Part shown: piece by piece, positions 8,695 through 27,009 of the stretch
Layout: each line of letters begins with the position of its first letter
How positions within the stretch are numbered: the first letter of the stretch is position 1
NCBI GenBank assembly: GCA_030765645.1
Contig: JAVCCE010000040.1
Span: 1-64,000, forward strand
From: Candidatus Hinthialibacter antarcticus
Lineage (GTDB): Bacteria > Hinthialibacterota > Hinthialibacteria > Hinthialibacterales > Hinthialibacteraceae
Direction of reading: 5' to 3'
Length of the DNA: 64,000 nt
Notes under the pieces: generated by a model
Database searches by the model: none
What the model saw: the letters and a program-made list of their open reading frames with translations, nothing else
Told to the model about the DNA's origin: nothing
Made by a program: the position numbers and the translations under genes

Positions 8695-8698
8695 AAAG

Positions 8699-9751
8699 TC
8701 AGCCTTTCAATTTTTGTAGCGCGGATTCCCATTCATCCGGCGTATTGCAATTTGTCCAGGCGTCGCGGTGCTCGTAGGGAATATCAACCGTTTTGATTTT
8801 GGGATGATTGGCGACCCAGTGAAGAGAGTAGTCTGATTCAACAATTCGTTCTTCAAATAATACGCGCATCGGCGGTTCATAGAGTGCGCCGAGAGGATGT
8901 ACGCCCCGCTCGTCTTTTGGCAACACCGCCCACACGCCCGTTCGCCTTTGTTCAATCAGCCATTGGAGCGCGGCCCTGGTCATTAAGGGCATGTCGCACG
9001 CTAAAAACAACCAGCCCGATTTGCGGTCCCACCGCATTGCAGATAATAGGCCCGCCAACGGGCCTTGAGCATCGCGGGCGTCGGGAACGGTCAAACCGGA
9101 GTACCCCGGTTGTTCGCCAATCAGAACCGTCGCGGCGGTTTGAGCACTAGATGCGGTTTGTCGCAAATGGTCTACCAACGATACATCGTTCATCTGCAAC
9201 GCGTATTTATCGCGTCCCATTCGCTTGCTTTTTCCACCGATTAGAATTCCTGCGTTAAGAGCAAGCGCGGCCCATTCATTTTGGAGCCGCTCAAAAATGA
9301 TCTGTTCACATCGGTCTAAGCGCGCTTCATCAAACGGTATGGAGGCAATCACATTTTCGAGATTATCTGGCGGTTGTTTTCCATCGGGGTGTGCAAGCCA
9401 GAGTTTTGGCCAGGGCGAACTTTTATGGCCTTCGAGCAAAAAAATATCAGCCGTCGCGGCATTTGATTCAATCAACCCTTTTATGGATACTGGTGAATTC
9501 GCCTTCATCCGTAAAAAGAGTTGTTCGTTGTCATGGGCAATGACGGCGTGTGCGCCTGCCTGCCAAAAACGGCCGGTATCTTTTTGGGGAGAGTCGAGTT
9601 TTAAGTGGTGAGAATCATGCTTGACGATTCCAACCAGAAGGCCCCGGTTTTGCAATCGACCGATCAGCCGTTCCAGCACCCAGGTTTTGCCCGAGCCGCT
9701 CCACCCGCAGATCGCAATACTATGAGGCCATGAGGATTGAGTCGTTGACAT
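8699..9751 (-). CDS. MobB-MobA fusion: Moco guanine dinucleotide synthesis
   Basis: A 350-residue fusion. Residues about 1-165 are MobB-like, with a P-loop in GWSGSGKTWVLERLIGRL, GIVKHDSHH and LLEGHK. Residues about 170-350 are MobA-like nucleotidyltransferase, with GILIGGKSKRMGRDKYAL, PDARDAQGPLAGLLSAM and FLACDMPLM. MobA transfers GMP from GTP to Mo-molybdopterin to make MGD, the cofactor form needed by the NarG enzyme encoded 7 kb away. The MobB half binds GTP and is thought to assist. Its start is divergent from moaA. Confidence 0.92.
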   Translation of the reverse strand: MSTTQSSWPHSIAICGWSGSGKTWVLERLIGRLQNRGLLVGIVKHDSHHLKLDSPQKDTGRFWQAGAHAVIAHDNEQLFLRMKANSPVSIKGLIESNAATADIFLLEGHKSSPWPKLWLAHPDGKQPPDNLENVIASIPFDEARLDRCEQIIFERLQNEWAALALNAGILIGGKSKRMGRDKYALQMNDVSLVDHLRQTASSAQTAATVLIGEQPGYSGLTVPDARDAQGPLAGLLSAMRWDRKSGWLFLACDMPLMTRAALQWLIEQRRTGVWAVLPKDERGVHPLGALYEPPMRVLFEERIVESDYSLHWVANHPKIKTVDIPYEHRDAWTNCNTPDEWESALQKLKG

Positions 9752-9804
9752 GGAAAGATTCTAGAGTAGATTTTTTATGTTTCCAAGACAGCAGAACGGC
9801 TAAA

Positions 9805-9832
9805 TTGCATTAGAGTGCGCACCCGCTACAAT
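9805..9832 (+). promoter_or_regulatory. Candidate sigma70-type promoter of moaA
   Basis: TTGCAT (9805-9810) and TACAAT (9827-9832) are separated by 16 bp, 34 bp upstream of the preferred moaA start at 9867. It lies in the 115-bp divergent region between mobBA and moaA. No Moco riboswitch-like structure was recognised there. Confidence 0.5.
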
Positions 9833-9866
9833 AACCGGGGCTGTATTAATGCTCGAAAGGGACTCG

Positions 9867-10865
9867 ATGGAATCACAGTGCGGGCGTTCTTCACTGGTTG
9901 ACCGTTTTGGTAGGTCGCATACTTACCTGCGCGTTTCGGTTACGGACCGATGCAACTTCCGTTGCATTTATTGTATGCCGAAAAAAGGCGCCCAACTGTC
10001 GCCGCGAAGTGAAATTCTCACCTTTGATGAGATTGAACGAGTGGTGCGTTTATTTTCTCAAGTTGGTATTTCCAAAGTCCGTTTTACCGGCGGCGAGCCG
10101 TTAGTCAGAAAAAACGTCACCGAGCTGATAGCCAATGTTCGTCGAATTCAAACCATAGAGACGATCGGCGTCACCACCAATGGCGTGTTGTTGAACCAAT
10201 ACGCTGCCGCTCTCAAAGAAGCAGGAGTTGACTTACTGAACGTGAGTTTAGATTCGCTTGATGAGAAGCGGTTTCAATTTCTCAGCGGGTCGCAAAATCT
10301 CAAAGATGTTCTCGCTGGAATACACGCAGCGTTAAAAATCGGCTTTAAACAAGTTAAGTTAAATGTCGTCATCATCAAAGAAGTCAATGAAGAAGAACTC
10401 TGTGGTTTTATTGATTACTTTCATGGATATCCTATCGAACTGCGTTTCATTGAATACATGCCGTTTTTAAAACAGAAATGGGACGAATCGCATCTCGTAC
10501 CCTGGACAATCATGCGGGACAGAATTCAAAAGCAATACGATCTGGCGCCGATGGAATCTGCTCACCCCGTTTCAGTCGCAAAGTTATTTCAGATTCAGGG
10601 AAGCGAACTTCGCGTTGGCTTTATCTCGACAATGAGCGAGCATTATTGCAACGATTGCAACCGCCTGCGCCTGATGGCGGACGGGTCGATCAAATCGTGT
10701 TTATTCAAAACGCCTGAGAGCAATATTCGAGACTTATTGCGCTCGAGGGCGAGCGATAGAGAAATACAAGCCTTAATTGCGTCAGTGGTCGAAACCAAGA
10801 CGCTTGCGCGGCCGCCGATAGACCCGGCCTCGCCGAATTCGCCGATGGTCAAAATCGGTGGCTAA
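9867..10865 (+). CDS. moaA: GTP 3',8-cyclase MoaA (radical SAM)
   Basis: A 332-residue radical SAM enzyme starting Moco synthesis from GTP. The SAM cluster motif is CNFRCIYCMP (about 22-31), with FTGGEPLVRKN behind it. The C-terminal second [4Fe-4S] site is HYCNDCNRLRLMADGSIKSC, and the protein ends in Gly-Gly, the conserved tail needed for catalysis in MoaA. ATG at 9867 is preferred over 9849 because AAAGGGA lies 7 nt upstream. It is a single-gene unit divergent from mobBA. Confidence 0.95.
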   Translation: MESQCGRSSLVDRFGRSHTYLRVSVTDRCNFRCIYCMPKKGAQLSPRSEILTFDEIERVVRLFSQVGISKVRFTGGEPLVRKNVTELIANVRRIQTIETIGVTTNGVLLNQYAAALKEAGVDLLNVSLDSLDEKRFQFLSGSQNLKDVLAGIHAALKIGFKQVKLNVVIIKEVNEEELCGFIDYFHGYPIELRFIEYMPFLKQKWDESHLVPWTIMRDRIQKQYDLAPMESAHPVSVAKLFQIQGSELRVGFISTMSEHYCNDCNRLRLMADGSIKSCLFKTPESNIRDLLRSRASDREIQALIASVVETKTLARPPIDPASPNSPMVKIGG

Positions 10866-11523: not shown

Positions 11524-13431
11524 ATGGAAAACACTTTTCCATCCAATGTGACTGTCCCCAATTTTGAGTATTGGCGCGAGCAGATCAAATGCCAAAATGC
11601 TTGTCCTGTCCACACTGATGCGCGTGGGTATATTCGCGCCATTGCCGATGGAAACGAAGAGTTGGCGTACTTAATTGCGCGCGGACCGAATCCGTTGGCG
11701 TCGATCTGCGGAAAGATATGCGGCGCCCCCTGCGAAGAAGCCTGTCGGAGGGGCGATTACGATGAACCCATTTCGATCCGTCAATTAAAGAATTATGTGT
11801 GTGAAAAATTCGGGCCTGAATCCTCGCCCGATGCTCCTGCGCGGTTAATTGAATTTTTGAAGGAAGCCGCAAGCAAACACCCGTCCCGGCAATGCCAAGG
11901 TCAGAACGAACTGCTGCCGATGTTGCAATCTCTCATGCAATCAGAAATTCAACCGGTGAATAATGCGAGCGTGGGCATTATCGGCAGCGGGCCTGCTGGT
12001 TTGGCTGCAGCCCATGATCTCGCCTTGTTGGGTTTTCAGGTAACCATTTACGAAATGGAGCCGGTGTTGGCGGGGATGTTGACCGTCGGCGTACCGGAAT
12101 ACCGGCTGCCGCGCGAAGTGATCGAAGCGGAAGTGAATGTTATTTTGGCTATGGGCGTGACAGCGGTCACGAATTGTTGTGTTGGTAAGGACATTACATT
12201 TTCCGAATTAAGAGTACGGCACAATGCGGTTATTGTCGCGGTCGGCGCCAAAAAATCCCGGCCGCTGCCGATCCCCGGCGCGAACGCCCCCGGCGTCTAC
12301 GGCGGCGTTGAGTTTCTGCGAGAAGTTTGTCTGGGGCGCTTTCCTCAGATGGGCAGACGGGTGGTCGTCATCGGCGGCGGCAATGTTGCTTATGACGTTG
12401 GTCGTACTGTCTTGCGCCAAATATCCATTGACGCTGCACGAACAGCAAGACGCTCACCGGGCGTCGGTGAAGTGCATTTATGCTCATTGGAATCGTTAGA
12501 CGAGATGCCTGCGGATGACGTTGAAATTATTGAGGGAGACGAAGAAGGCATCAAACGGTTAAACAGTTTAGGGCCATCAGAAATTATTGTTGATGACTCA
12601 GGTAAGGTCATCGGCGTTGAATTCAAAAAATGTGTACGCGTGTTCAATGAAAAAGGACGTTTCGATCCTCTTTTTAATGAAAACGATATTCATATTATTG
12701 AATGCGATTCGGTGCTGGTTTCGATCGGACAGCAATTTGACTTGTCGTTTATTGATCCTATACGTCACGGCTTGAAGCTGCTGCCGAACGGCGCGTTGGA
12801 GTGCAACTCCATCGATGGAAAAACCAAGAGCCCGGATGTGTATGTCGCGGGCGACCTCGCCTACGGTACAAAACTTCTGATCCATGCGGTGGCATCGGGC
12901 AAATCGGTTGCGCGAGCGATTTACGCTTCAGTCACAGGTCAAACTTTATCGCAACGTCAAACAGAACTCCACTTTCCTTTAACGAATTACTACCGCGAAG
13001 AAAGTTTTGAAAAACAGCCGCGAGTGGAGCCGCACAAAACGTCTGTCGCTGAACGCTTACAGTCTCAATCAAAAGTGGTGGAACAATCGCTTACCCAGGA
13101 ACAGGCGCGATGTGAGGCGGGCCGTTGCCTGGATTGTGGAATTAACACGATTTTTGACGGTGAAAAATGTATTTTGTGCGGGGGCTGCGTAGATGTCTGT
13201 CCCGAACGGTGTCTTCGAATTGTTTCTGCGTCGCGCTTGGCGGACGGAGAAGACATTGGGGCGGTGTTAGACAATCAGTTGCAAGATTTCCCAATGGAGC
13301 AAGCCTCCGCCATCATTAAAGATGAAACGATTTGTATTCGCTGCGCCTTATGCGCAGAGCGGTGCCCAACGGGCGCCATCACTATGGAACGCTTTCATTT
13401 CGAGGTGAATTCATCATGTCAGACCGTTTAG
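11524..13431 (+). CDS. GltD-like FAD/NAD(P) oxidoreductase with N- and C-terminal Fe-S domains
   Basis: A 635-residue cytoplasmic iron-sulfur flavoprotein. The N-terminal Fer4_20 domain has CQNACPVHTDARGYI and ICGKICGAPCEEACRRG (about 20-80). FAD is bound by IGSGPAGLAAAHDLALLGF (about 150), and a nucleotide site shows VVIGGGNVAYDVGRTVLRQ (about 280). The C-terminus carries CLDCGI, a ferredoxin motif CILCGGCVDVCPERC and a second CIRCALCAERCPTGA. The architecture is that of the glutamate synthase small subunit plus a 2[4Fe-4S] ferredoxin. No large glutamate synthase subunit is nearby, so its role is more likely electron transfer from NAD(P)H into the membrane complex encoded next. It overlaps the Rieske gene by 16 bp. 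Confidence 0.85.
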   Translation: MENTFPSNVTVPNFEYWREQIKCQNACPVHTDARGYIRAIADGNEELAYLIARGPNPLASICGKICGAPCEEACRRGDYDEPISIRQLKNYVCEKFGPESSPDAPARLIEFLKEAASKHPSRQCQGQNELLPMLQSLMQSEIQPVNNASVGIIGSGPAGLAAAHDLALLGFQVTIYEMEPVLAGMLTVGVPEYRLPREVIEAEVNVILAMGVTAVTNCCVGKDITFSELRVRHNAVIVAVGAKKSRPLPIPGANAPGVYGGVEFLREVCLGRFPQMGRRVVVIGGGNVAYDVGRTVLRQISIDAARTARRSPGVGEVHLCSLESLDEMPADDVEIIEGDEEGIKRLNSLGPSEIIVDDSGKVIGVEFKKCVRVFNEKGRFDPLFNENDIHIIECDSVLVSIGQQFDLSFIDPIRHGLKLLPNGALECNSIDGKTKSPDVYVAGDLAYGTKLLIHAVASGKSVARAIYASVTGQTLSQRQTELHFPLTNYYREESFEKQPRVEPHKTSVAERLQSQSKVVEQSLTQEQARCEAGRCLDCGINTIFDGEKCILCGGCVDVCPERCLRIVSASRLADGEDIGAVLDNQLQDFPMEQASAIIKDETICIRCALCAERCPTGAITMERFHFEVNSSCQTV

Positions 13432-13886
13432 CCCCTAAACCGATTCCAAGACGTGATTGGCTTGGATTGACCGGACTCTGGGCCGCCGGATTCGCCATTT
13501 TCAGTTCGATGGTTGGAATGGCGCGTTTGCCCAAGCCGCGCGTGACCCCGGAGGCTTCCAGTATTTTCAGAATTGGCAGCCCGACGGAACTTCCGGTGGG
13601 CAGCGAAAAGGTGATTGCAGACATCAACATGCGCGTCATCTCTACGCCGCAGGGAATCGCAGCGATGTCATTGATTTGCACTCATCTGGGCTGCATTGTT
13701 CAACCCTCTACTCAAGGTTTTGTTTGCCCATGTCACGGCTCGAAATTTGATCGTGATGGAAACGTAAAAGGTGGGCCTGCGCCAAGGCCATTGATGTGGA
13801 ACCAGGTATCTCAAGCGGCGAGCGGCGAATTGATTGTCGATACCTCTGTTGAAGTAGAAGCCGGACAATTCTATCAAATCGTTTAA
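13416..13886 (+). CDS. Rieske [2Fe-2S] protein
   Basis: A 156-residue Rieske protein with an N-terminal membrane/Tat-like anchor (IPRRDWLGLTGLWAAGFAIF, about 9-28) and a C-terminal Rieske fold. Cluster ligands are CTHLGC (about 90) and CPCHGSKF (about 107), the paired Cys-His boxes of bc1-type proteins, including the disulfide cysteines. ATG at 13416 is preceded by GAGG; the upstream frame extension is shadow within the previous gene. With the next gene it forms the core of a quinol-oxidising Rieske/cytochrome b complex. Rieske and cytochrome b genes next to periplasmic Nar are also known from haloarchaeal nar operons. Confidence 0.92.
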   Translation: MSDRLAPKPIPRRDWLGLTGLWAAGFAIFSSMVGMARLPKPRVTPEASSIFRIGSPTELPVGSEKVIADINMRVISTPQGIAAMSLICTHLGCIVQPSTQGFVCPCHGSKFDRDGNVKGGPAPRPLMWNQVSQAASGELIVDTSVEVEAGQFYQIV

Positions 13887-13897
13887 GGGGAAGAGCA

Positions 13898-15445
13898 ATG
13901 TCCAGCACCGGATTTCAACTTTTTTGGACAAATTTAAAAACATTGCCACAATCATTTCACCATGCGGTGTTTCGTCATGGTGCGCCAACGTCTGACCGCG
14001 CCCGTTCGCAATCCGTCTTCTCTAATTTTTTCTTGCACATACATTCGGCAAGGGTCCGGCCCCATTCATTGAAACTTACGACCACCTGGGGATTGGGCGT
14101 TTCTCTGATCGCTCAGTTCGTCATTTTGTCGGTAACCGGCATTCTACTGATGGTGTATTACAAGCCGTCTATTGATATGGCTTACGATTCGATTAAAGAC
14201 ATTCATTACGTTGTTCCAACCGGGCGTTTTCTTCGCAACATCCATCGTTGGGCGGCCCATTTGATGGTCTTTACGGTAATCTTGCACATGGCGCGGGTGT
14301 TTTACACCGCCGCTTATAAATCGCCGCGTGAATTTAATTGGCTGCTAGGCATGGTGTTATTTATTTTAACGCTTGCATTGTCTTTTACCGGCTACTTGCT
14401 GCCCTGGGACCAGTTGGCTTATTGGGCGATTACGATTGGCGCCAACATTGCCGCTTCACCGAATGAGTTAGTGTATGCGTTGGGGCTGCCTTCTTCGATG
14501 AATGTTGGAGACCTGCAGAAAGAACTACTGCTTGGGTCTTCAACCGTCGGTCAAGACGCTTTGATCCGCTTTTATATGCTACATGTCGTTGTGCTTCCTA
14601 TCGCACTCGCCGTACTGGCTGCCGTTCATATCTGGCGCATCCGAAAAGACGGCGGCTTGGCGAACCCGAATGGAACGCTTTCACCAACAGGAAAAGGCGT
14701 TGGGACATCAACCCCAGAACTTCAGAGCGCCAAAAGTGCGCCTACAAAAACCTATGGCTTAATGTGTCTCGTGAAAGACAAATCGCCGCAGACGGATGCA
14801 AATCCTGACGAAACGGCGCCCAGTTGGCCCTATTTGTTACGAGCGGAACTATTGGTTTTCATGGTTGTGATGTTGGTCTGCGTACTGTTGGGATTATTAT
14901 TTGACGCTCCATTGACCGAACCTGCCAACCCAAGCGTACCGGAGAACCCTGCGAAAGCGCCTTGGTATTTTCTTGGCTTACAGGAGATGGTTTCTTATTC
15001 CGCCTTTGTTGGCGGGATGCTGGTTCCGTCCATTGTTATTTTTGGTTTGGCGATGATTCCGTTTCTTGATAAAGAATCTGAGCCGGGCGGCGTTTGGTTC
15101 ACTAGAATGGAAGGTCGGCGGATTGCGTATTTGTCCGTATTGTTCGGCTCGTTATGCGCCGTAGCAGCGGTGGCGTTTCCCGTTTCGTTCGGCTGGTTGC
15201 GCGAATGGTTTCCTTCGATTCCGCAATTGTTCATTATCATTATCAACCCCGGAAGTTTATTGACGGCGGCTTACGCTGGCTGGTCTTTGTATATCCTTCA
15301 TACCACCAAATCGACCCGGATGAGCGCGATTGCTTTGTTCACTTGTTTTCTGGTGGGCTTTATCATTTTGACTTATGTTGGCACCTATTTGCGTGGGCCG
15401 AACTGGGCCTTCTATTGGAGCCAGTCACAGTGGCCTAAGCATTAA
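13898..15445 (+). CDS. Cytochrome b (bc1/b6f type, full-length b plus subunit IV-like part)
   Basis: A 515-residue membrane protein. The N-terminal four-helix cytochrome b part binds two hemes b through His pairs in the helices around FLRNIHRWAAHLMVF and FYMLHVVVLPIALAVLAAVHIW. The Qo-side glycine/proline pattern SFTGYLLPWDQLAYWA is present. After a polar linker (about 270-310) a C-terminal b6f subunit IV-like part follows, with the quinol-site sequence PWYFLGLQEM. The long linker and extra C-terminal helices (about 395-505) are unusual. It accepts electrons from quinol together with the Rieske protein and probably passes them to the hexaheme cytochrome encoded next. Confidence 0.92.
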   Translation: MSSTGFQLFWTNLKTLPQSFHHAVFRHGAPTSDRARSQSVFSNFFLHIHSARVRPHSLKLTTTWGLGVSLIAQFVILSVTGILLMVYYKPSIDMAYDSIKDIHYVVPTGRFLRNIHRWAAHLMVFTVILHMARVFYTAAYKSPREFNWLLGMVLFILTLALSFTGYLLPWDQLAYWAITIGANIAASPNELVYALGLPSSMNVGDLQKELLLGSSTVGQDALIRFYMLHVVVLPIALAVLAAVHIWRIRKDGGLANPNGTLSPTGKGVGTSTPELQSAKSAPTKTYGLMCLVKDKSPQTDANPDETAPSWPYLLRAELLVFMVVMLVCVLLGLLFDAPLTEPANPSVPENPAKAPWYFLGLQEMVSYSAFVGGMLVPSIVIFGLAMIPFLDKESEPGGVWFTRMEGRRIAYLSVLFGSLCAVAAVAFPVSFGWLREWFPSIPQLFIIIINPGSLLTAAYAGWSLYILHTTKSTRMSAIALFTCFLVGFIILTYVGTYLRGPNWAFYWSQSQWPKH

Positions 15446-15506
15446 TGTTCGTTGTTAAATCGAAAAAAAGCGCCGGTTGCGGCTTACTAAGATTCGAGGT
15501 TCAGCC

Positions 15507-17015
15507 ATGGATGTGAATAACATCAAACAGATGGATCAAAAAGTAAAATGGGCGCTTGTCATCGTCAGTCTGTTGACTTTGGCGGTTTTAATTATCGCTG
15601 CCGTATCCGAGAATGTGCTCGCTTCCTGGCGCATGATACGTCTTGGCTATGTCGGGATATTGAATGAACAAGCGACCGATGAGCGCGGTCGGGCCATTGC
15701 CGACCAATTTGAAATACGGATCGTACAAAACTATCTCCCGACTTTAGAAGCCGTCGACCGTTGCGTTACATGCCATCCTGGCATTGACGATCCCCGAATG
15801 ATAGACGAGAAACAACCTTACAAGGCGCACTCTGGCGAATATCTGACTCAACATCCTCCCGAAAATTATGGTTGTACCATTTGTCACCGGGGGCAGGGTC
15901 GCGCCCTGGTGTTTGAAGAGGCAAAGGGTGAAGAGAGCCATTGGGATTATCCACTCTTACCGATCAATTTAACTCAATCCGCTTGTGGGTTGTGCCACTC
16001 GTCGGATGAAGTCAAAGACCGGGGCGGCGAACTCTACGCGCTGGGCAAAGAACTCTTTACGGATAAAGGTTGTTATTCATGCCACAACCTGCGCGGTGTG
16101 GGCGGCAACATGGGGCCTGCATTGGACCCGATTGGATTAAAAATCAAACAGATGCTCCCTATGGTCAATGTCGAAGGGCCGCATACGCTCCCGCAATGGC
16201 TGAAAGAACATTTTGAAGATCCGCAGAAAATCGTCGTCGGCAGCCAGATGAAACCGCCGCAGCTGAGCGGAGAAGAAATTGAAGCGTTGACGACGTATAT
16301 GCTGTCATTGCAAGAGCGTGAAATCTCACGCGCCTATTTGACGGCGGGAAAATTGTTGGAACTGTACAAACAAGAACATCCCGAACCTGCCTCCGGCGAA
16401 GAACTTTATGTGCGTTATTGCTCTAGTTGTCATGACACGGGCGAATATGCGCGGTACGACAAGTTCTATCAGAAATTTTTCCCAGCGGTTCGCGGTAGTG
16501 TGTATGTACAGATAGCCTCTAGAGATTATTTAAAACAAAACATTGCGCAGGGGCGTCCTGGAACATTGATGCCTGCTTGGGAGAAAAACTCCGGTGGATT
16601 AACGGAAAGTGAAATTGACCGGATCATTGACTATATGCTGGATGTGCAAATTCCCGAACATGAGAAGTTAGATGCTCGAATGGTGCAAGGAACGCAAGAC
16701 CCGGCCTTCAAAGTAATTGGAGATCAGGCGCGTGGAAAAAAACTGTTTACCAAACATTGTTCGGCCTGCCATTTATCAACTTTGGCGCCGGATTTATTCA
16801 ACGCCACGTTCCAACAGTCTGCTACGGACGGGTTTGTTTTTACGACGATATTGAAGGGCCGTGAAAATACTCCTATGCCAGGATTCTTTGCACCCGGCAA
16901 AGGGGGAATGGGACCGGACGATATCTCTGATTTAACGGCCTATATCCGCAACGCTGCTCAGGCGCCTTCTCAGTCAGGACTCACATTCGCCTTACCGACC
17001 AATAACAAGGACTAA
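15507..17015 (+). CDS. Membrane-anchored hexaheme c-type cytochrome
   Basis: A 502-residue protein with an N-terminal TM anchor (WALVIVSLLTLAVLIIAAVS, about 16-35) and a periplasmic region. Six c-heme motifs are visible: CVTCH, CTICH, CGLCH, CYSCH, CSSCH and CSACH. The last three lie in mono-heme cytochrome c-like modules with Met ligands likely in the segments after each motif. ATG at 15507 has GAGG upstream. Lying between cytochrome b and narG, it is the obvious electron carrier from the Rieske/b complex to the periplasmic NarGH. Confidence 0.9.
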   Translation: MDVNNIKQMDQKVKWALVIVSLLTLAVLIIAAVSENVLASWRMIRLGYVGILNEQATDERGRAIADQFEIRIVQNYLPTLEAVDRCVTCHPGIDDPRMIDEKQPYKAHSGEYLTQHPPENYGCTICHRGQGRALVFEEAKGEESHWDYPLLPINLTQSACGLCHSSDEVKDRGGELYALGKELFTDKGCYSCHNLRGVGGNMGPALDPIGLKIKQMLPMVNVEGPHTLPQWLKEHFEDPQKIVVGSQMKPPQLSGEEIEALTTYMLSLQEREISRAYLTAGKLLELYKQEHPEPASGEELYVRYCSSCHDTGEYARYDKFYQKFFPAVRGSVYVQIASRDYLKQNIAQGRPGTLMPAWEKNSGGLTESEIDRIIDYMLDVQIPEHEKLDARMVQGTQDPAFKVIGDQARGKKLFTKHCSACHLSTLAPDLFNATFQQSATDGFVFTTILKGRENTPMPGFFAPGKGGMGPDDISDLTAYIRNAAQAPSQSGLTFALPTNNKD

Positions 17016-17019
17016 CATC

Positions 17020-19869
17020 ATGACGAAACCAGACCAGACGCAATCCACGGGTGTTTTAATAAACCGACGGAATATGCTTCGCTTGGGCGGAGGGCTTGGC
17101 GTCGGGGCGTTGCTGACTTCTGTATCCCATTCGGCGTTGCAGGAATTTGACATCATTAACGCCGATCCGCTGAAAGAATACGCCTACCGGGGGTGGGAAG
17201 ATTTATACCGCGAACAATTTACCTGGGACCGCGTCGTCCGCTCAACGCACTCGGCCAACTGCACGGGGTCTTGTTCCTGGAAAGTCTATGTAAAAGACGG
17301 CGTCATGTTGCGCGAAGAACAAGCCGCTGACTATCCGCGCATCAGTGAAGACCTTCCTGATTATAATCCGCGCGGCTGCCAGAAGGGCGCATGTTTTGTT
17401 GAATACGTTTATGGCGCCCAGCGCCTGAAATATCCGCTGATTCGAACCGGCGAGCGCGGCGAAGGAAAGTGGCGGCGCGCCAGTTGGGATGAAGCGCTTG
17501 AATACGTCGCGGAAAAAGTCGTCGATAATATTTATAATTATGGCCCTGACACCAATACGTTTTTCTCTGTTATCCCCGCCATGTCGCCAGTTTCATTCAG
17601 CGCTGGTTCCCGGTTTGCGCAATATGTGGGAGGCGTGTTCTGTTCTTTCTATGACTGGTACTGCGACCTGCCGCCGGGAGAGCCGATTACCTGGGGCGTA
17701 CAGACCGAATCGTGCGAATGCGCAGACTGGTTTAATTCAAAATATATCGTCTTGTGGGGCAGCAACATCAACCAAACCCGCATCCCCGACGCTCATTATG
17801 CGTGGGAGGCGCGCTACAACGGCGCCAAAGTCGTCTGCATCTCACCCGATTACAACAGCAGCGCAATTCATTGCGATCAATATATCCGCGTCAATCCAGG
17901 CAGCGACGCGATACTGGCGATGGCGGTTTGCCGGTATCTAATTGAGAATGATTTATGTGATACTCCTTACATTAAAGAACAAACGGATATGCCGTTATTG
18001 GTTCGGTTGGACACAAACCGCTTTTTGCGCGCATCCGACCTGGGCGCGGGCGACGAACAAGCCGAGTCGCAATTCTTCGTATGGGATTCAAAATCACAAA
18101 AGCCGGTTGCGCTGCCGGGTTGTATGGGCAGTGAAAAGAAAAACCTGCTGCTGGGTGAAATTGATCCAGAACTTCGGGGCCAATGGACTGTCCAACTGGA
18201 GAACGGTGAATCCTGCGAAGTGACCACCGTGTTTAATCAATTAGGCGTTCTGCTGAAAGACCCGATTTATTCACTGCAAGGCGCCGCGCAACACTGTGGG
18301 ATTGACGAGCAGGATTTGCAAACATTTTTCAATGATTTTGCTACCCGCAAGCCTGCCATGATTATTCACGGGGCGGGAACGAACCATTGGTACCACAATG
18401 ACCTGTTGAACCGGGCGATGATTCTTGTCGTTGCGCTGACTGGCAATGTCGGAAAGAACGGCGGCGGGTTTAACCATTACGTCGGACAAGAGCGCATTTG
18501 GCCTGAACACGGGTTCAAGACGTTGGCCTTCCCAGAGGGCGCCAAAAAACAGCGCTTCCAGAATATGACGATGTGGACCTATTGCCATTCTAAGCAAAAC
18601 GACCCTCATCTGATTAACGGCAAACTGGTTGAAGAGTATATTTTGGATTCTGTCCGCAATGGTTGGATGCCGCTATGGCCAAAGAATGATTGGGCGGCGT
18701 TACAGCCCGAACAGATGCACGACCTCCCGCGAAAGCCCCGCTCGTTATTTGTGTGGCGCGCTAACTATTTGAACCAGGCCAAAGGCAACGAAGCCATATT
18801 GCGTTCTCTCTGGAAAGATTTAGACCTGATCGTCGATATCAACTACCGTATGGATACGACCGCGCTGTATAGCGACGTGGTCCTTCCGGCTTCGTCCTAC
18901 TATGAAAAAACCGATTTGAATTCGACCGATTGCCATTCCTACATGCACCCGTTTTCGAAAGTGCTTGATCCATTATATGAATCGAAAACCGATTGGGATA
19001 TTTTTGGCGCGCTGTCGAAAAAAGTCGCTGAAGTCGTGAAGCGAAAAGGGTTGCAGCCGTTTCAAGATGAAGAGTTGGATTGGGAGAGAGATTTAACGAA
19101 ACTTTATGAAAATTGGACATCGGATGGGGCAATTACAACGGATGAAGACGCGTGTAATCATATTTTATCTAATTCGCCCGAAACCGAAGGCATGACCTAC
19201 CATAACATCCAGAGCGGCCCTAAGCGCTTTGTTAAAATTGATGAAGAAGCGTGGAACAGCGATATTGAAGAAGGCCGCGCTTATACGCCATTTACTCACC
19301 AAATCGAGAAAAAACGACCCTGGCGTACATTGACGGGCAGGCAGCAATTTTATATTGACCACCCCTGGTATCTTGATCTGGAAGAGCAACTGCCCGTTCA
19401 TAAAGAGCCGCAAGACGACCCCGAATTTCCCTATTATTGGAACACGCCGCACGGTCGGTGGTCGATCCATTCTACCTGGCGGGACAACCGCTACATGCTG
19501 CGTTTGCAGCGTGGGTTGCCCATCGTATATATTCACCCCGATGACGCAAATCAAAAGCAAATTAAAGACAACGATTGGGTGCGGGTGTTTAACGACCAGG
19601 GCGAGACCGTGGTGAAGTGTAAAATTCTTCCCGGCGAAAAGAAACGCCGCTTGACGATGTACCATGGATGGGAAAAGTTCCTTGGATTTCAAGAGGGCGG
19701 TTGGCAGTCGCTGACCTACATCAAAATCAAACCAACACAGTTAATTGGACACTATGGCCACCTTAATTTCAAATTGAATTATTGGGGGCCGACGGGCAGT
19801 AACCGCGATATTAAAGTCAACATGGAACGCTATGACGGGCCCATTGCGGGCTTTGAACCATCGGCGTAA
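17020..19869 (+). CDS. narG: Periplasmic respiratory nitrate reductase alpha subunit
   Basis: A 949-residue Mo-bisMGD enzyme of the NarG/NxrA group (type II DMSO reductase family). A twin-arginine leader (NRRNMLRLGGGLGVGALL) marks export, so the active site faces the periplasm, unlike E. coli NarG. The FS0 cluster motif is HSANCTGSCSWKVYVKDG (His-x3-Cys-x3-Cys). The Mo-ligand Asp lies in YDWYCDLPPGEPITWG, matching NarG. Cofactor-binding segments such as WGSNINQTRIPDAHY and the C-terminal molybdopterin-binding domain are present. Nitrate reduction is the default reading; nitrite oxidation or chlorate/selenate reduction cannot be excluded from sequence alone. It starts 4 bp after the cytochrome c gene. 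Confidence 0.93.
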   Translation: MTKPDQTQSTGVLINRRNMLRLGGGLGVGALLTSVSHSALQEFDIINADPLKEYAYRGWEDLYREQFTWDRVVRSTHSANCTGSCSWKVYVKDGVMLREEQAADYPRISEDLPDYNPRGCQKGACFVEYVYGAQRLKYPLIRTGERGEGKWRRASWDEALEYVAEKVVDNIYNYGPDTNTFFSVIPAMSPVSFSAGSRFAQYVGGVFCSFYDWYCDLPPGEPITWGVQTESCECADWFNSKYIVLWGSNINQTRIPDAHYAWEARYNGAKVVCISPDYNSSAIHCDQYIRVNPGSDAILAMAVCRYLIENDLCDTPYIKEQTDMPLLVRLDTNRFLRASDLGAGDEQAESQFFVWDSKSQKPVALPGCMGSEKKNLLLGEIDPELRGQWTVQLENGESCEVTTVFNQLGVLLKDPIYSLQGAAQHCGIDEQDLQTFFNDFATRKPAMIIHGAGTNHWYHNDLLNRAMILVVALTGNVGKNGGGFNHYVGQERIWPEHGFKTLAFPEGAKKQRFQNMTMWTYCHSKQNDPHLINGKLVEEYILDSVRNGWMPLWPKNDWAALQPEQMHDLPRKPRSLFVWRANYLNQAKGNEAILRSLWKDLDLIVDINYRMDTTALYSDVVLPASSYYEKTDLNSTDCHSYMHPFSKVLDPLYESKTDWDIFGALSKKVAEVVKRKGLQPFQDEELDWERDLTKLYENWTSDGAITTDEDACNHILSNSPETEGMTYHNIQSGPKRFVKIDEEAWNSDIEEGRAYTPFTHQIEKKRPWRTLTGRQQFYIDHPWYLDLEEQLPVHKEPQDDPEFPYYWNTPHGRWSIHSTWRDNRYMLRLQRGLPIVYIHPDDANQKQIKDNDWVRVFNDQGETVVKCKILPGEKKRRLTMYHGWEKFLGFQEGGWQSLTYIKIKPTQLIGHYGHLNFKLNYWGPTGSNRDIKVNMERYDGPIAGFEPSA

Positions 19870-19905
19870 CGCAGCAGTCCATTCGACAGATGAAAGGGAC
19901 GAACA

Positions 19906-21090
19906 ATGTCTGAACATCAATATGCAATGGTGATGGATTTAAATAAATGCATCGGCTGCCAAACGTGCACGATGGGTTGCAAAAAACAATGGACTGACCG
20001 CGACGGTACAAGTTATATGTACTGGAACAATGTGGAAACTCAGCCCGGGCGAGGATATCCCAAAAATTGGGATTCGATCGGCGGCGGTTTTGACAGCCGA
20101 CGCAATCTTCGACCTTCGCCGCTGCCGCCAAAAGAAGATTACGGCGAAGCCTACGACTATGATTACAACCAGCGGTTGTTCAAGGGCGGAAACAAGCCGG
20201 TGATGCCCCACAAGCCGCCGACCTACGGGCCGAATTGGGACGAAGATGTGGGAGGGATGGATACGACCAATCCATATTTCTTCTATCTTCCGCGCATCTG
20301 CAATCACTGCACGCACCCCGCTTGCGTAGAATCGTGCCCGCGCAAGGCGATCTACAAACGCACCGAAGACGGCATTGTGGTCATCGATCAAGAACGATGC
20401 AACGGATACCGCTATTGCATAAAATCGTGTCCGTACAAAAAAATCTATTTCAACGAAGTTACGGGGAAAAGCGAGAAATGTATTTTCTGTTATCCGCGCC
20501 TTGAAAAAGGCGTGGTCAATGCGTGCGCGGCGCAGTGCCCCGGGCGAATTCGCTTTGTCGGGTTGTTGGATGACCCTGACTCTCCGGTCCATAAACTGGT
20601 CGTAAAATATAAAGTGGCGCTTGGCTTGTTTCCTGAAAAAGGGACGCACCCGAATGTCTACTATATCCCGCCGTTTAACCCGCCCAAGGATGGCAAAGCC
20701 AACGGTCGCGTATTGGATGATCCGCGCTTGCCGTTAGATTACTTGAAATATTTATTTGGACCAAAAGTACTAAAGGTAATTCAGTTCCTTGAAAATGAAT
20801 TAGTGAACTCTCAAAATGGCGAGGTCAGCGAAGTGTTACAGCTCCTGATCGGACGGTCTGGCGAGACACGATACCGCATCGTTCCCAAAACGGTGAGCGA
20901 GTCGACGCCGGCTGACGTGAAACAACAGGTTGATTCGATTCAAAGCGGTTCGGATTTGACCCTGATGGGGACGCCGCCGATAATCGGGCTTAACCAAGGC
21001 TCCCGCACAACGCCCTGTAACACAGACCAGAAAAACACCGCTGAATGCAGTTCGTGCGCGCTTCAATCAAACTGCGACAACATTGGATGA
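19906..21090 (+). CDS. narH: Nitrate reductase beta subunit, four Fe-S clusters
   Basis: A 394-residue electron-transfer subunit exported with NarG by the hitchhiker route (no own signal). Cluster motifs in order are CIGCQTCTMGC, CNHCTHPACVESCP, CNGYRYCIKSCP and CIFCYPRLEKGVVNACAAQC. In the third, Tyr takes the place of the second Cys (Trp in E. coli NarH), so one cluster should be [3Fe-4S]. The tail (350-394) ends with CSSCALQSNC, extra cysteines of unknown use. It lies 36 bp after narG with AAAGGGACG upstream of the ATG. Confidence 0.93.
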   Translation: MSEHQYAMVMDLNKCIGCQTCTMGCKKQWTDRDGTSYMYWNNVETQPGRGYPKNWDSIGGGFDSRRNLRPSPLPPKEDYGEAYDYDYNQRLFKGGNKPVMPHKPPTYGPNWDEDVGGMDTTNPYFFYLPRICNHCTHPACVESCPRKAIYKRTEDGIVVIDQERCNGYRYCIKSCPYKKIYFNEVTGKSEKCIFCYPRLEKGVVNACAAQCPGRIRFVGLLDDPDSPVHKLVVKYKVALGLFPEKGTHPNVYYIPPFNPPKDGKANGRVLDDPRLPLDYLKYLFGPKVLKVIQFLENELVNSQNGEVSEVLQLLIGRSGETRYRIVPKTVSESTPADVKQQVDSIQSGSDLTLMGTPPIIGLNQGSRTTPCNTDQKNTAECSSCALQSNCDNIG

Positions 21091-21121
21091 AGGCCTCAGG
21101 CCGGAAGAGGAGATGTTCTCC

Positions 21122-21979
21122 ATGAAACAATACATTCTGCTGGTTTTAATCGCCGGAATATTCACCGCATCGCTTTATGCGGCGGATGAAAATGGCGCGA
21201 TTGTGATCCCCGTTGACGCTGCCGCTTCGACGACCGGGATCGACGATTTATATAATCTGAACCACCCGGCCTGGGCGCAGGCGAAAGAGACGGCGCTTCA
21301 TTTTCATCGTACGCCGCCTCTTTATAACGACGGCCCCTATGACGACGGCGAACGCCCCGTCGCTTCGGTGCGCTTCATTCGGTTTAGCGACAAGACGCTG
21401 GTTTTGCGTCTTGAGTGGAGCGACTCGACTGCCGATCAGTTTGAACAAGGCGTTCGCTATCCAGACGCGGGCGAATCCCACGTTTACAAAACGCATACGT
21501 CAAACACCAATCAATTCGGCGATTCCGCTTGTTTGATGGCGCCGAAGTCTAAAACGCCAATGCCAGCGTATCCGTCTATGATGATGGGCGATATAGCCAA
21601 CCCGGTTGACCTGTTTTTCTGGCAGGCGGGCAGAGGATTTTCATTATTGCAGGCGCATGGGCGCGCATCGACAGCGGCAGCGGCAGCGCAAACGCAAACA
21701 CAAACACAAACACAAACACAAACACAAACACAAACACAAACACAAACACAAACACAAACACAAACACAAACACAAACACAAACACAAACACAAACACAAA
21801 CACAAACAGAACAAGCACTGAATGGGAAAAGTTTCCGCCAGGAGAATGGCTGGGCCGTTATTTTTGTTTTGCCTGACCTCTCCGCTTCCACTCCCGTTTG
21901 TTTTGCCATTTGGGATGGAGCGAAACAACAGCGGGACGGTTTGAAATACTATAGCCTCTGGTACGAGATTCAATCATGA
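21122..21979 (+). CDS. Heme b-binding gamma subunit (ethylbenzene dehydrogenase-type) with a Gln-Thr repeat
   Basis: A 285-residue exported protein with a Sec signal (MKQYILLVLIAGIFTASLYA). The body resembles the EbdC/DdhC/NarI-like periplasmic gamma subunits of type II DMSO reductases: HPAWAQA, VRFIRFSDKTLVLRLEW, YPSMMMGDIANPVDLFFWQAG (a Met here is a likely heme ligand) and the late ENGWAVIFVLPDL strand. Between the last two lies a 40-residue (Gln-Thr)20 tract encoded by a hexamer repeat, where relatives have an ordinary loop. ATG at 21122 has GAGGAG upstream. It replaces the membrane NarI in this system and should receive electrons from the cytochrome c. Its stop overlaps the chaperone gene start. 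Confidence 0.82.
   Translation: MKQYILLVLIAGIFTASLYAADENGAIVIPVDAAASTTGIDDLYNLNHPAWAQAKETALHFHRTPPLYNDGPYDDGERPVASVRFIRFSDKTLVLRLEWSDSTADQFEQGVRYPDAGESHVYKTHTSNTNQFGDSACLMAPKSKTPMPAYPSMMMGDIANPVDLFFWQAGRGFSLLQAHGRASTAAAAAQTQTQTQTQTQTQTQTQTQTQTQTQTQTQTQTQTQTQTQTEQALNGKSFRQENGWAVIFVLPDLSASTPVCFAIWDGAKQQRDGLKYYSLWYEIQS
21689..21808 (+). repeat. Hexanucleotide microsatellite (CAAACA)19 inside the gamma-subunit gene
   Basis: Nineteen perfect tandem copies of CAAACA fill 21695-21808, preceded by one degenerate copy (CAAACG, 21689-21694). A short GCGGCA-rich stretch encoding poly-Ala lies just before it. The hexamer codes Gln-Thr in the gene's frame and leaves the other frames open too, so unit gain or loss changes protein length without a frameshift. 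Confidence 0.97.
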
Positions 21980-22641
21980 AATTGCCATCTAACTTTGAGC
22001 AAAACGAATCCATTTTGAATGACTCATTGCCGTTTGCCTTCCTCCATGATTTATTCCGGTACCCAACCAGCGCTCAGTGGGAATGGATAACCCAGACGGA
22101 CGTGCGGACTGCTTTAGGCGCATTATTCCAACAATATGGAATAACCAACGATCAGGACGCAAATCTATATCCAGCGTCTTATGAAGAATATGAAGAGTCT
22201 TTCATTCGATTGTTCGAAGTGGGCGCGCCATGCCCTGATTGTCCGTTGATCGAATCTCATTGGAACAAGAAAGACCCGACGCCCAAGGTTCTGCATGAGA
22301 ATATTTTGTTTTACAAAGCCTTCGGATTGCGATTGAAAAAGGAAGCGGAAGAAACCGCGGACCACCTGCGGTTTCAGTTGGAGTTTTATCGGCATCTAAC
22401 CGCTTTGGCAGCCGAAACGGCTGACAGTCCTGAACGCGCCGACCATTATCAACAAATCATGCAGGCAAGAAGGGATTACTTACAACGGCATCTTTTAAAT
22501 TGGGTGCCCCTTGCCGTCGAGAAGGCCATTGAAACCGCTCCCGAATCTTGTTTTGCGAATTGGATGCGCCTGCTGGGCGCTTGCGTCGCCGATCAATTTA
22601 ATCTGGTCGACCAGGAAATGCAGAATGGACCACTTGAATGA
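21976..22641 (+). CDS. narJ: NarJ/TorD-family chaperone for the molybdoenzyme
   Basis: A 221-residue all-helical cytoplasmic protein of the TorD/DmsD/NarJ superfamily. Supporting features are the N-terminal LPFAFLHDLFRYPT, the central YEEYEESFIRLFEVGAPCPDCPLIESHW and DHLRFQLEFYRHLTALAAE. Such chaperones bind the Tat leader and insert Moco before export. ATG overlaps the stop of the gamma subunit (4 bp), and its own stop overlaps the next gene. The position directly after alpha, beta and gamma matches dmsABCD-like and ebd/ddh operons. Confidence 0.85.
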   Translation: MKLPSNFEQNESILNDSLPFAFLHDLFRYPTSAQWEWITQTDVRTALGALFQQYGITNDQDANLYPASYEEYEESFIRLFEVGAPCPDCPLIESHWNKKDPTPKVLHENILFYKAFGLRLKKEAEETADHLRFQLEFYRHLTALAAETADSPERADHYQQIMQARRDYLQRHLLNWVPLAVEKAIETAPESCFANWMRLLGACVADQFNLVDQEMQNGPLE

Positions 22642-22823
22642 CATGGAACTGCAAACATGACATCAACGGCTTTTGCGAGAAACGAAAGAAACTCTGCGCG
22701 CCAGATAGTAAAGGCTGCGTTTTGCATAAGCGATTCAAGTTTGTAGAAATCAACAACCCAAAATCAATGCCAACGGCCCAAAAGGCGACCAAGACGCAAA
22801 TAGACTTAACTGACGAAACCTGA
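22638..22823 (+). CDS. Small Cys-rich protein of the nar operon, unknown function
   Basis: Sixty-one residues starting on the ATGA overlap with narJ. Four cysteines occur as C-x7-C-x6-C-x6-C within NCKHDINGFCEKRKKLC and GCVLHKRFKF (residues 5-34), followed by a polar Thr/Lys-rich tail. The pattern suggests a single Fe-S cluster or zinc site. Translational coupling to narJ argues that it is real and acts in assembly of the nitrate reductase. I do not recognise a named family. Confidence 0.65.
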   Translation: MTWNCKHDINGFCEKRKKLCAPDSKGCVLHKRFKFVEINNPKSMPTAQKATKTQIDLTDET

Positions 22824-22898
22824 GTTTGCAACAGCGATTCTGCCTTCACAAGCGCGTGACGGTTCGCAGACAGAAACTTCCAGATTAACAGCTACGGG

Positions 22899-25199
22899 AT
22901 GTTGAAGCGGATGAGTGACAGCGTAACTACAATAAAAGTTGATACGGCCCGCGAGTGGTCATCCTGGTTGACTTGTCTGACAGTGGGGATTCTTCTGTAT
23001 GAATCAATCACTGGATTTGCCATTCTATTTCTGCCCTTCAGCCTGTTTAACCAATTCTCCGTCCTGTTGCATACATTGATTGGCTTGATCTCATTTCTGC
23101 CGACTGCGTGGTATTCATACACTCATTGGAAAGTTCGGAGAGTGGGGAGTTTAAGCCACTATCAGGTTGTTGGTTATGGGACGTTTATTTCTCTATTTAT
23201 TTGCTTTGCCAGCGGCGTTGTTTTGACGCTTCAAGCCGCCTTTGGCCGCCGCATCGACGCATTCTGGGATATGGTGCACATTGGGTCGAGCATTGTGTTC
23301 TTCCTGCTGATGACGCTTCATATCATGACATTAGTTTTTCGTAGCGCTGGCGGGTTGAATTTAAATAATACGGGAGACGCGAAGGTTCGCTTTTATGTTC
23401 GTTCTTCGGTCAGTTGCGTAGCGCTGTGTCTTGTTACGTTCGCTTCGTTGTTATTGTATCCCAGCCAGCAATGGAACCAGCCGTTTTCTCCTGACTATGA
23501 TTGGCGCTTTGGCGAAGACCGCCCGTTTGCTCCGAGCTTAGCCCGCGTCGATTACAATGGACGCGAGACCGAAATTGTGAGCGCGGTGATGGAGCAATTG
23601 GAACCAGCCAAACGGGAAGCCTTTTCTCAAGCGTACCGTAACCACGAACGCGCGCGTCTTGGCTTGTATCAGCAAGTGACCAACAGCCTGAGCGATAGCA
23701 ATGCGCCCGCAAATGTTCGAGAGAAATTTGAAGAGCGATTTTCTGACTATACCAAGTTTGTAAGCCAGTGGGGCGCCGTCGATCCAGAATTGCTCGCTGG
23801 TTCGAGCCGGTGCGGGACCTCTGGGTGTCATGATGATATTTACCAGGAATGGGCGCCTAGCGCCCATCGGTATTCGGCCCTCGATCAGATGTTTCAAAAA
23901 ACGCAAGAATTCATGGCGGTTGAAACCAGCCCGGAGCAAACGCGCTATTGCGCAGGCTGCCACGATCCGATTTCGCTATTCGGCGGGGCAAAGAATAAAT
24001 CAAACATTACCTTGAGCGCAAAAGGCTCAGATGAAGGCATCTCGTGCGTAGTCTGTCATAGTATCGTACAAGCAGATACGCAAGGAAACGCTGATTATAC
24101 GCTTCAACTTCCGGTCCCGTATTTGTTTGAAAAATACGACGATGCGGCGTCGTCATGGATCAGTGATTTTTTAATTCGCTCTTATCCACGCCATCATGTC
24201 GAATCATATTCGAGAACGCTTTATAAATCCGCAGAGTATTGCGGGGCCTGTCACAAGCAATACATCGACAAAGAAGTCAATACTGATATTGGTCGCGTTC
24301 AAGGCCAGAACCAGTACGATAGTTGGCGAAAGAGCCATTGGTATGACGAAGAAAATCCTGACAATACCATCACATGCCGTGAATGCCACATGCCCTTACA
24401 AGCAAGCGATGACCCGTCGTCCGGCGACCCGTATGACTTCAACCGAAACCGGAATGACCAGAAGCATCGCAGCCACCGGTTTCTTGCATCCAATCAATAT
24501 ATCCCGGTATTTCATCAACTGCCGGATGCAGACCTCCACGTTCAATTGACTGAGGATTGGCTGCGCGGAGAGATCGAGATTCCTGAAATCGCAGATCGTT
24601 GGGTGACAGGGCCGGTCGTTGAAATGGAAATCCAAGCGCCCAAGCGCGTTAAACCAGGCGACGAAATTCACATCCAAGTGCTTTTGGTGAATAACAAAAC
24701 CGGGCACGACTTTCCAACAGGCCCGTTAGATATGATCGAATCATGGCTGGAACTGATTGTTAGCGATGAGCGCGGTGAAGTCAGATACCACGCAGGCGCC
24801 ATTGATGATGGAGGAGATGTGCTCGAACCGCCTCTTATATTCAAAGCAGACGGCTTTGACCGCAAAGGAGAATTAATTGACCGCCATAATTTATGGGACA
24901 TGGTAGGCGCCCGATACAAGCGGGCAATGTTTCCCGGCGTGTCTGACGCAGTCAATATCTCGATGTTATGCCCTGAGACGTCTGTGAAATCTACCGCATC
25001 TTCACCAGAGCGCTCCGGCGAGTTTGATGTCCTCATTCCCCAGTCATCAGAAAAAAGCGCATTACATGTGACCGCAATCCTTTGGTATCGAAAAGCCAAT
25101 GCGGCTTTTCTGAAACGCATTTATGGGATCGATACGGAATTCCGGTCTCCCGCTACCGATATTTCCCGCGCAAGCGCCGTGATTGAGATTGATGCGTAA
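22899..25199 (+). CDS. Fused membrane cytochrome b and pentaheme cytochrome c
   Basis: A 766-residue protein. Residues about 15-185 hold four TM helices with His residues suited to heme b (LLHTLIGLISFLPTAW, WDMVHIGSSIVFFLLMTLHIM). The periplasmic remainder has c-heme motifs CGTSGCH (a CX4CH variant), CAGCH, CVVCH, CGACH and CRECH, in the style of cytochrome c554/multiheme Cytochrome_C554-type proteins, and ends in a beta-rich domain (about 560-766). It could be a quinol dehydrogenase passing electrons to nitrogen oxides or to NarGH. The start could also be the internal ATG at 22911. It overlaps the next gene by 8 bp. Confidence 0.82.
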   Translation: MLKRMSDSVTTIKVDTAREWSSWLTCLTVGILLYESITGFAILFLPFSLFNQFSVLLHTLIGLISFLPTAWYSYTHWKVRRVGSLSHYQVVGYGTFISLFICFASGVVLTLQAAFGRRIDAFWDMVHIGSSIVFFLLMTLHIMTLVFRSAGGLNLNNTGDAKVRFYVRSSVSCVALCLVTFASLLLYPSQQWNQPFSPDYDWRFGEDRPFAPSLARVDYNGRETEIVSAVMEQLEPAKREAFSQAYRNHERARLGLYQQVTNSLSDSNAPANVREKFEERFSDYTKFVSQWGAVDPELLAGSSRCGTSGCHDDIYQEWAPSAHRYSALDQMFQKTQEFMAVETSPEQTRYCAGCHDPISLFGGAKNKSNITLSAKGSDEGISCVVCHSIVQADTQGNADYTLQLPVPYLFEKYDDAASSWISDFLIRSYPRHHVESYSRTLYKSAEYCGACHKQYIDKEVNTDIGRVQGQNQYDSWRKSHWYDEENPDNTITCRECHMPLQASDDPSSGDPYDFNRNRNDQKHRSHRFLASNQYIPVFHQLPDADLHVQLTEDWLRGEIEIPEIADRWVTGPVVEMEIQAPKRVKPGDEIHIQVLLVNNKTGHDFPTGPLDMIESWLELIVSDERGEVRYHAGAIDDGGDVLEPPLIFKADGFDRKGELIDRHNLWDMVGARYKRAMFPGVSDAVNISMLCPETSVKSTASSPERSGEFDVLIPQSSEKSALHVTAILWYRKANAAFLKRIYGIDTEFRSPATDISRASAVIEIDA

Positions 25200-27009
25200 A
25201 CCAAAGCTAACCAGAAGCCGCCGCCAATTTCATCTGATCGTGTGGAGTATCCTGACGGGGTGCATCGTAATTGGAGCGCCGATTTTCCTGTATTGGATTT
25301 ATCAACCTGCCGATTCTGTCTTCGATCCGTATGGAGAAAAAATTGACGGAATTACTAACGTCCACCTTCAAGAGAGCGATAATACAGCGCCAGAAATCCA
25401 ATTTGATGAGGTCGCTGAAAAATCAGGCATTGTATTTCATCATTTTCCATTTGAACGGAATTCCTACATTGTTGAAGACATGGGGGCTGGGCTGGCATGG
25501 GGCGATTATGATGGCGACGGTGACGAAGACCTTTTTCTCGTGAACTTTTCAGCGCCATTTAATGGACAACAATCAGAGCCGTCTTCAGGCGCTACACATG
25601 CGCTTTATCAAAATCAAGGAGACGGGACCTTCGTCGATGTCAGCAAAGAATACGGAGTTGATTTGTCTTCGTATGGCATGGGCGCCGCCTGGGGTGATTT
25701 TGATAATGATGGCGATTTAGATTTGTACGTCACGAATATTGGCTCAAACCTTCTCTTTCAAAACAATGGAAATGGCGGCTTCACAGAAATCGCAAAAAAT
25801 GTCGGCCTAGATGATGACCGCTTTGGGGCCGGGTGCATGTGGGGCGACTATAACCGTGACGGCTGGATCGATTTATATGTTTGCAACTATGTGGATTTTG
25901 TATTTCGTGAAGGGGATGTCAAACGCAAATCAAAATTCAACCGGCTGGAATATCCCCATACGTTGAATCCCTCTTCATACGCATCGCAACCCAATCGGCT
26001 CTATCGGAATAATGGGGATGGAACTTTCACGGATGTCGCAGAATCTGTAGGCGTTGATAACCCGGAAGGGAGAAGCCTTGCAGTTTCGTGGACCGATTTT
26101 GATCTGGACGGCTATGTGGATTTGTACATTGCGAACGATGTTTCCAGCAATGCGATGTATCGAAATATGGGTAACGGAACGTTCGAAGACGTCAGTTCGA
26201 GATCGCTGACTGCTGACTACCGGGGCGCGATGGGCATTGCGGTCGGCGACTATGATCGCGACGCCGATCTTGATCTTTTTATTACGCATTGGCTCGCGCA
26301 AGAAAATGCGCTCTATCAAAATATGATGTTTTTTATGGGCATGAAACAAGACGCCGATCAGGCGTTGTTTTTTACGGATGTTGCCGATGAGTTTGGGCTG
26401 GGGCAAATTTCGTTAGATATGGTTGGGTGGAGCACGTCGTTTATTGACTTTGACAATGACGGCTGGCTGGATTTATGGATTTCTAATGGAAATACGCTTG
26501 AACAACTGGATGAGGTGAAGCGATTAAAGCCTCAAGCCATATTGTTATTTCATCAACAGCCAGAAAAGGGATTTTATGAAATCGGCGCCAAGGCATGTGA
26601 TGCATTATCTATACCGACTGTTACGCGAGGCGGCGCCTTTGCCGATTATAACGCCGATGGACGGATTGATTTTGCGTTGCAACAACATGGAGAATCACCG
26701 CTGTTGTTTCTGAATACCACCCAGAATACGCATAACTGGATTCAAATCGAATTAAAACAGAATAAGTATAATACTCAGGCGTTGGGCGCGAGAGTTATTC
26801 TAAAAACAAACGATGGGCTGCAACTGCAACAAGTCGGTTCACAGGCGTCTTATTTATCTCAAAACCAAAACATTCTACATTTTGGTTTAGGGGAAAACGA
26901 TGCAATCAATGAAATTCAAATTTTCTGGCCGGATGGACGCGAAGAAATAATCCGCGAAGTGGATGGCATCAACCAAAAACTAACTATCATTCATGAGCCA
27001 GAATATTAA
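25192..27009 (+). CDS. ASPIC/UnbV-type FG-GAP/VCBS beta-propeller protein
   Basis: About 605 residues with an N-terminal TM anchor (FHLIVWSILTGCIVIGAPIF). Repeated Asp-rich calcium loops follow: GDYDGDGDEDLFL, GDFDNDGDLDLYV, GDYNRDGWIDLYV, TDFDLDGYVDLYI, GDYDRDADLDLFI, IDFDNDGWLDLWI. The C-terminus (about 520-605) has the ASPIC/UnbV signature (NTHNWIQIELKQNKYNTQALGARV, FGLGENDAINEIQIFWPDG). These are surface or periplasmic binding propellers. The start overlaps the stop of the cytochrome gene, so it is the last gene of the respiratory operon; its connection with respiration is unknown. Confidence 0.85.
   Translation: MRKPKLTRSRRQFHLIVWSILTGCIVIGAPIFLYWIYQPADSVFDPYGEKIDGITNVHLQESDNTAPEIQFDEVAEKSGIVFHHFPFERNSYIVEDMGAGLAWGDYDGDGDEDLFLVNFSAPFNGQQSEPSSGATHALYQNQGDGTFVDVSKEYGVDLSSYGMGAAWGDFDNDGDLDLYVTNIGSNLLFQNNGNGGFTEIAKNVGLDDDRFGAGCMWGDYNRDGWIDLYVCNYVDFVFREGDVKRKSKFNRLEYPHTLNPSSYASQPNRLYRNNGDGTFTDVAESVGVDNPEGRSLAVSWTDFDLDGYVDLYIANDVSSNAMYRNMGNGTFEDVSSRSLTADYRGAMGIAVGDYDRDADLDLFITHWLAQENALYQNMMFFMGMKQDADQALFFTDVADEFGLGQISLDMVGWSTSFIDFDNDGWLDLWISNGNTLEQLDEVKRLKPQAILLFHQQPEKGFYEIGAKACDALSIPTVTRGGAFADYNADGRIDFALQQHGESPLLFLNTTQNTHNWIQIELKQNKYNTQALGARVILKTNDGLQLQQVGSQASYLSQNQNILHFGLGENDAINEIQIFWPDGREEIIREVDGINQKLTIIHEPEY

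Follow-up and report, generated by a model that had tools for sequence, protein, structure and literature searches.

An in-frame hexanucleotide array in the gene for a putative heme-b gamma subunit of Candidatus Hinthialibacter antarcticus

Genes around the array

The window analysed here is the whole stretch of 64,000 nucleotides at the beginning of contig JAVCCE010000040.1 of Candidatus Hinthialibacter antarcticus, and all positions refer to it. Its tandem array lies in a gene that we assign, from its sequence, to the heme-b (gamma) subunit of a type II DMSO-reductase-family molybdoenzyme of the EbdC/DdhC type, encoded alongside alpha, beta and chaperone genes as members of this family are (Table 1). 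The open reading frame (ORF) extends back to a TTG codon at its first position; the likelier start, as judged by eye, is the ATG at 21122, which has AGGAG upstream of it and is accompanied by a Sec-like signal (MKQYILLVLIAGIFTASLYA).

Table 1. Features of the enzyme operon and of the repeat array, in window coordinates
Feature	Positions	Strand	Basis
Rieske-like, cytochrome b and multi-heme cytochrome c genes	13332..17015	+	ORFs, families, motif
Catalytic molybdopterin alpha subunit, Tat-like N-terminus	17020..19869	+	TIGR03479, 1143 bits (cut-off 985)
Iron-sulfur beta subunit	19906..21090	+	TIGR03478, 490.5 bits (cut-off 480.7)
Gamma (heme b) subunit gene	21083..21979	+	ORF; PF09459, 40.1 bits (cut-off 33.3)
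5' adjoining stretch, ACA GCG GCA GCG GCA GCG	21671..21688	+	Codon view
Hexamer array, CAAACG + (CAAACA)19, encoding (Gln-Thr)20	21689..21808	+	Tandem Repeats Finder, unit count
Frayed 3' border, GAA CAA GCA	21809..21817	+	Codon view
Enzyme chaperone (delta)	21976..22641	+	PF02613 above cut-off; TIGR03482, 106 bits (below cut-off 152.3)

The initial annotation had named a heme-binding gamma subunit as the host of the array, and this is borne out by the PF09459 score, by matches of a profile built from the relatives to two proteins of solved structure and by a structural match to one of them. Nitrite oxidoreductase subunit C (NxrC, PDB 7B04 chain C) belongs to the same family by profile (E 1.7e-16); it has no repeat at the array site, and carries extra sequence between its two matched parts. 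EbdC, the gamma subunit of ethylbenzene dehydrogenase (PDB 2IVF chain C), shares family and fold by both profile and structure, lacks the repeat and has only about four extra residues at the insertion site. EbdC was also the best structural match (2ivf_C, E 6.6e-12) when the AlphaFold model of a relative free of the insert was used in a fold search; with the insert-containing model the fold search yielded no significant hit, apparently owing to the dominance of a predicted hairpin in that model. The TIGR03477 profile, which describes the heme-b subunit of the type II DMSO-reductase family, scored 79.6 bits against a cut-off of 169.85, its match being split by the insert. We consequently file the protein under PF09459 and suggest that it works like the TIGR03477 subunits, with no claim to membership of that subfamily. 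Plasmids searched with the first 193 residues yielded no hit. Ethylbenzene dehydrogenase itself was rejected as an identity for the enzyme, the equivalog models NF042978/79/80 scoring 424, 384 and 23.6 bits against cut-offs of 2000, 740 and 400.

A respiratory role for the enzyme is suggested by the genes just upstream of alpha, which have Cytochrome_B and cytochrome c family matches and include a Rieske-like protein assigned by eye from a CTHLGC...CPCHGS motif. The run from 13332 to 27009 comprises Rieske-like, cytochrome b and multi-heme cytochrome c genes, the alpha-beta-gamma-chaperone genes, a 766-aa protein and an FG-GAP/UnbV protein, and resembles a bc-type module for quinol oxidation attached to the putative molybdoenzyme. 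The 766-aa protein (22899-25199) has N-terminal membrane helices, seen by eye, a C-terminal multi-heme cytochrome c554-like part and a weak match to ExtKL-type cytochromes. Molybdenum cofactor genes (MoeA-like, a MobB/MobA-like fusion and MoaA-like, from motifs seen by eye) lie directly upstream of the enzyme operon at 7480-10865. MAGs that carry the labels of several phyla, Acidobacteria, Armatimonadota and Hydrogenedentota among them, contain close relatives of the alpha subunit (63-80%).

Sequence, frame and copy number of the array

Tandem Repeats Finder returned a single tandem array in the 64 kb window, with a period of 6, 20 copies, 99% matches, zero indels and a score of 233. A count of its units gives one CAAACG and then, head to tail, 19 CAAACA, so that the perfect portion is 114 bp long (21695-21808). 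The array is in frame with the ORF that ends at 21979 and lies within it, homology continues in the same frame on either flank, and the translation is Gln-Thr repeated 20 times; the position, purity and frame initially given for a (CAAACA)19 tract encoding (Gln-Thr)20 were thus all recovered. The pattern (CAAACA)4 has no other occurrence in the 5.15 Mb assembly and was absent from all 13 other genomes of the phylum that were searched. A chance origin of nineteen perfect copies is impossible.

The borders of the array are graded. The 5' adjoining stretch is mostly an alanine run containing a short (GCGGCA)2.5, and it passes into the array by single-base steps, while at the 3' border ACA-GAA is one substitution off the repeat unit. 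Read as codon pairs, the sequence is GCG-CAA, ACG-CAA, (ACA-CAA)n and ACA-GAA, each border unit differing from the next by a single substitution. Judging by how microsatellites are known to behave, a pure middle with frayed ends is what repeated strand slippage usually leaves. Slowing by rare codons was also considered: ACA makes up 14% of the Thr codons and CAA 60% of the Gln codons of the operon, ACA being a less-used yet not exceptional codon there.

Long pure microsatellites are known to cause phase variation in bacteria, mostly where three does not divide the unit length. Tetranucleotides are the case described in PMC2651432. The present array might be read as a contingency repeat switching the gamma gene on and off. 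A six-base unit, however, preserves the frame at every whole-unit change, as had been proposed from the sequence at the outset, the unit contains no stops, and the coding hexanucleotide repeats of Haemophilus influenzae were judged incapable of phase variation (PMC2651432). The chance that this reading is correct is negligible, a frame-switching contingency locus being ruled out by a 6-bp unit inside an ORF.

The copy number must be read in the light of the assembly method. Many pairs of contig ends in this genome have exactly 127 bp in common, as shared or overlapping sequence, which indicates de Bruijn assembly of short reads at k=127. Assemblies of this type resolve a repeat only if it is shorter than k (PMC6868369). 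The array could be an artefact in its length, the true array being longer, shorter or missing in most cells: the assembly is short-read, 120 bp is near the longest array that can be spanned at k=127, and assemblers discard length variants by bubble removal, so that any copy number is that of the assembled haplotype. Against this, the perfect run of 114 bp is below k and is therefore spanned without collapse by k-mers that must have included the whole array with its flanks, and contig C40 (109,866 bp) runs unbroken for 88 kb past the array. Furthermore, an array that did reach k broke its contig rather than collapsing: a (CTTGCTGTC)n array ends two contigs with 124-bp perfect runs, contigs C25 and C30 each beginning with 124 bp of this perfect 9-bp repeat in opposite orientation (L128:1-124, L133:1-124), as expected if the array was too long for k. 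In this genome repeats of about 127 bp or more would be expected only at contig ends. We consider an assembly artefact unlikely, and the assembled haplotype very probably has a genuine hexamer array of 19-20 units. It also follows that short-read genomes show arrays of this sort only up to the k-mer length, longer ones probably being missed at contig ends.

The insertion site and its predicted structure

Gamma relatives were located via the alpha subunit, and 30 of them, three from the same phylum, were aligned. None of the 30 has the repeat insert, which agrees with the earlier remark that so pure a repeat is unusual in a respiratory gene. The nearest relative is 60% identical along the whole length of the subunit and has GRATTEALSAELAGKSYR in place of the window's GRASTAAAAA-(QT)20-EQALNGKSFR, so that the insert lies just after the conserved GRAST motif. 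In the AlphaFold model of this insert-free relative the site is a loop between strands E182-188 and E203-207. The loop varies by only 0-4 residues among the relatives, and one of them (L015) has a small tandem duplication in it, APGF-APGT. From this variation, the duplication and the extra residues of EbdC at the same place we conclude that the loop is permissive, and that the window holds its extreme case.

The core of the protein is intact. The heme b of EbdC has a methionine and a lysine as its ligands and is the putative electron exit (PMC8840923). Every column that is invariant across the family alignment is kept, including Met139, and the RDGxKY motif retains its Lys275, in a nearly invariant column; both residues align with the family columns and are, by alignment, the candidate heme ligands. 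These observations bear on the idea that the gene is decaying and that the array marks a pseudogene. The sub-threshold TIGR03477 score and a large insert in a subunit could be taken as signs of decay, but the ORF is full-length, the operon order is intact, the conserved residues are retained with PF09459 above its cut-off, and the identity with the nearest relative extends from end to end. A pseudogene is consequently highly improbable.

In the AlphaFold model the insert takes the form of a long beta-hairpin, strands E192-209 and E213-230 (block pLDDT about 70-79). The alignment includes no sequence homologous to the insert, and such models are unreliable for pure repeats. The hairpin could hint at a structured arm, which would speak against a neutral product of slippage. 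A functional arm would be a (Gln-Thr)n hairpin contacting a partner cytochrome or a neighbouring subunit, with its reach adjusted by slippage. Such a role would agree with the modelled strands, which continue the fold, with the alternation of Thr and Gln, which is compatible with a beta strand, and with the position of the gamma subunit as electron exit in this class of enzymes (PMC8840923). The confidence of the hairpin is moderate only, however, for an insert without homologues in the alignment, and no arm is found at this site in any of the 30 relatives. A functional arm of this kind is unlikely, and it is very unlikely that slippage sets the length of a protruding hairpin so as to vary its reach for docking an electron-transfer partner, as a length-tuned contingency repeat. 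A tuning of loop length, as first proposed, is at most a possibility, in a loop that by nature varies little. If variation in length were found together with a phenotype, it would represent an unusual tuning by repeats that is quantitative rather than on/off.

Probable slippage and other repeats of the genome

The reading that we favour, and hold to be quite probable, is a recent in-frame expansion by slippage in a permissive loop of the gamma subunit, neutral or nearly so, with a copy number that likely differs between cells. A hexanucleotide microsatellite would have grown by strand slippage during replication within the gene of a periplasmic heme-b protein, adding about 40 Gln/Thr residues to a single loop that is probably exposed to solvent. 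Gain or loss of whole units would then shift the loop length by Gln-Thr pairs with the frame kept, and because the 6-bp unit is free of stops and maintains the frame, selection against expansion would be weak. That the expansion is recent, as had been suggested initially, is supported by the purity of the array and by its absence from the 30 relatives.

Loops of six bases are poorly handled by mismatch repair. The genome contains both mutS and mutL, and loss of mismatch repair was rejected as the cause of the array.

Coding hexamer repeats are a known kind of bacterial repeat, and this one is unusually long and pure. The in-frame hexanucleotide repeats of H. influenzae likewise have a six-base unit within an ORF and alter residues rather than the frame; they are few and length-invariant, being conserved or changed in sequence and not in length (PMC2651432), whereas here there are 19 perfect units. 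Low-complexity regions of prokaryotic proteins are likewise short-period amino-acid repeats attributable to slippage, but those most enriched in bacteria are rich in Pro, Gly and Ala (PMC6821194) and the present one is a Gln-Thr dipeptide. Nothing relevant on Gln-Thr repeats turned up in a search of the literature. The array offers a clean natural example, from an uncultured bacterium, of how long an in-frame coding microsatellite can become within a conserved metabolic protein, and it locates a permissive loop in the fold of the heme-b subunit.

Other repeats were surveyed in 2.60 Mb, or 51% of the assembly, so that the half outside the sample could hold arrays of other units. The sample contained only three perfect arrays of more than 20 bp: the hexamer, the 9-bp repeat of contigs C25 and C30, and a 17-bp repeat in contig C68. 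The 9-bp repeat, (CAGCAAGGA)n, is also coding, and specifies (Gln-Gln-Gly)n in a long protein unrelated to the gamma subunit, for which the part tested gave no Pfam match. Two other genera of the family (G003 and G005) have a non-repetitive linker at this site, and a third (G006) has at the same linker, again at a contig end, a 15-bp coding repeat (Gln-Gln-Gly-Gln-Gly)n (L226:1-110) that is independent of the (Gln-Gln-Gly)n array. Permissive linkers in this lineage have thus acquired in-frame coding arrays rich in Gln codons on more than one occasion.

Since the second array lies in an unrelated gene, the process that forms such arrays is not special to this enzyme, which suggests general slippage rather than something specific to respiration and counts further against a functional arm. 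Near-neutrality of the hexamer expansion is argued from this second array together with the tolerance of a variable loop. The 17-bp perfect repeat, with 6.3 copies of a unit that is not a multiple of three, stands at the end of its contig (L171:2915-3021).
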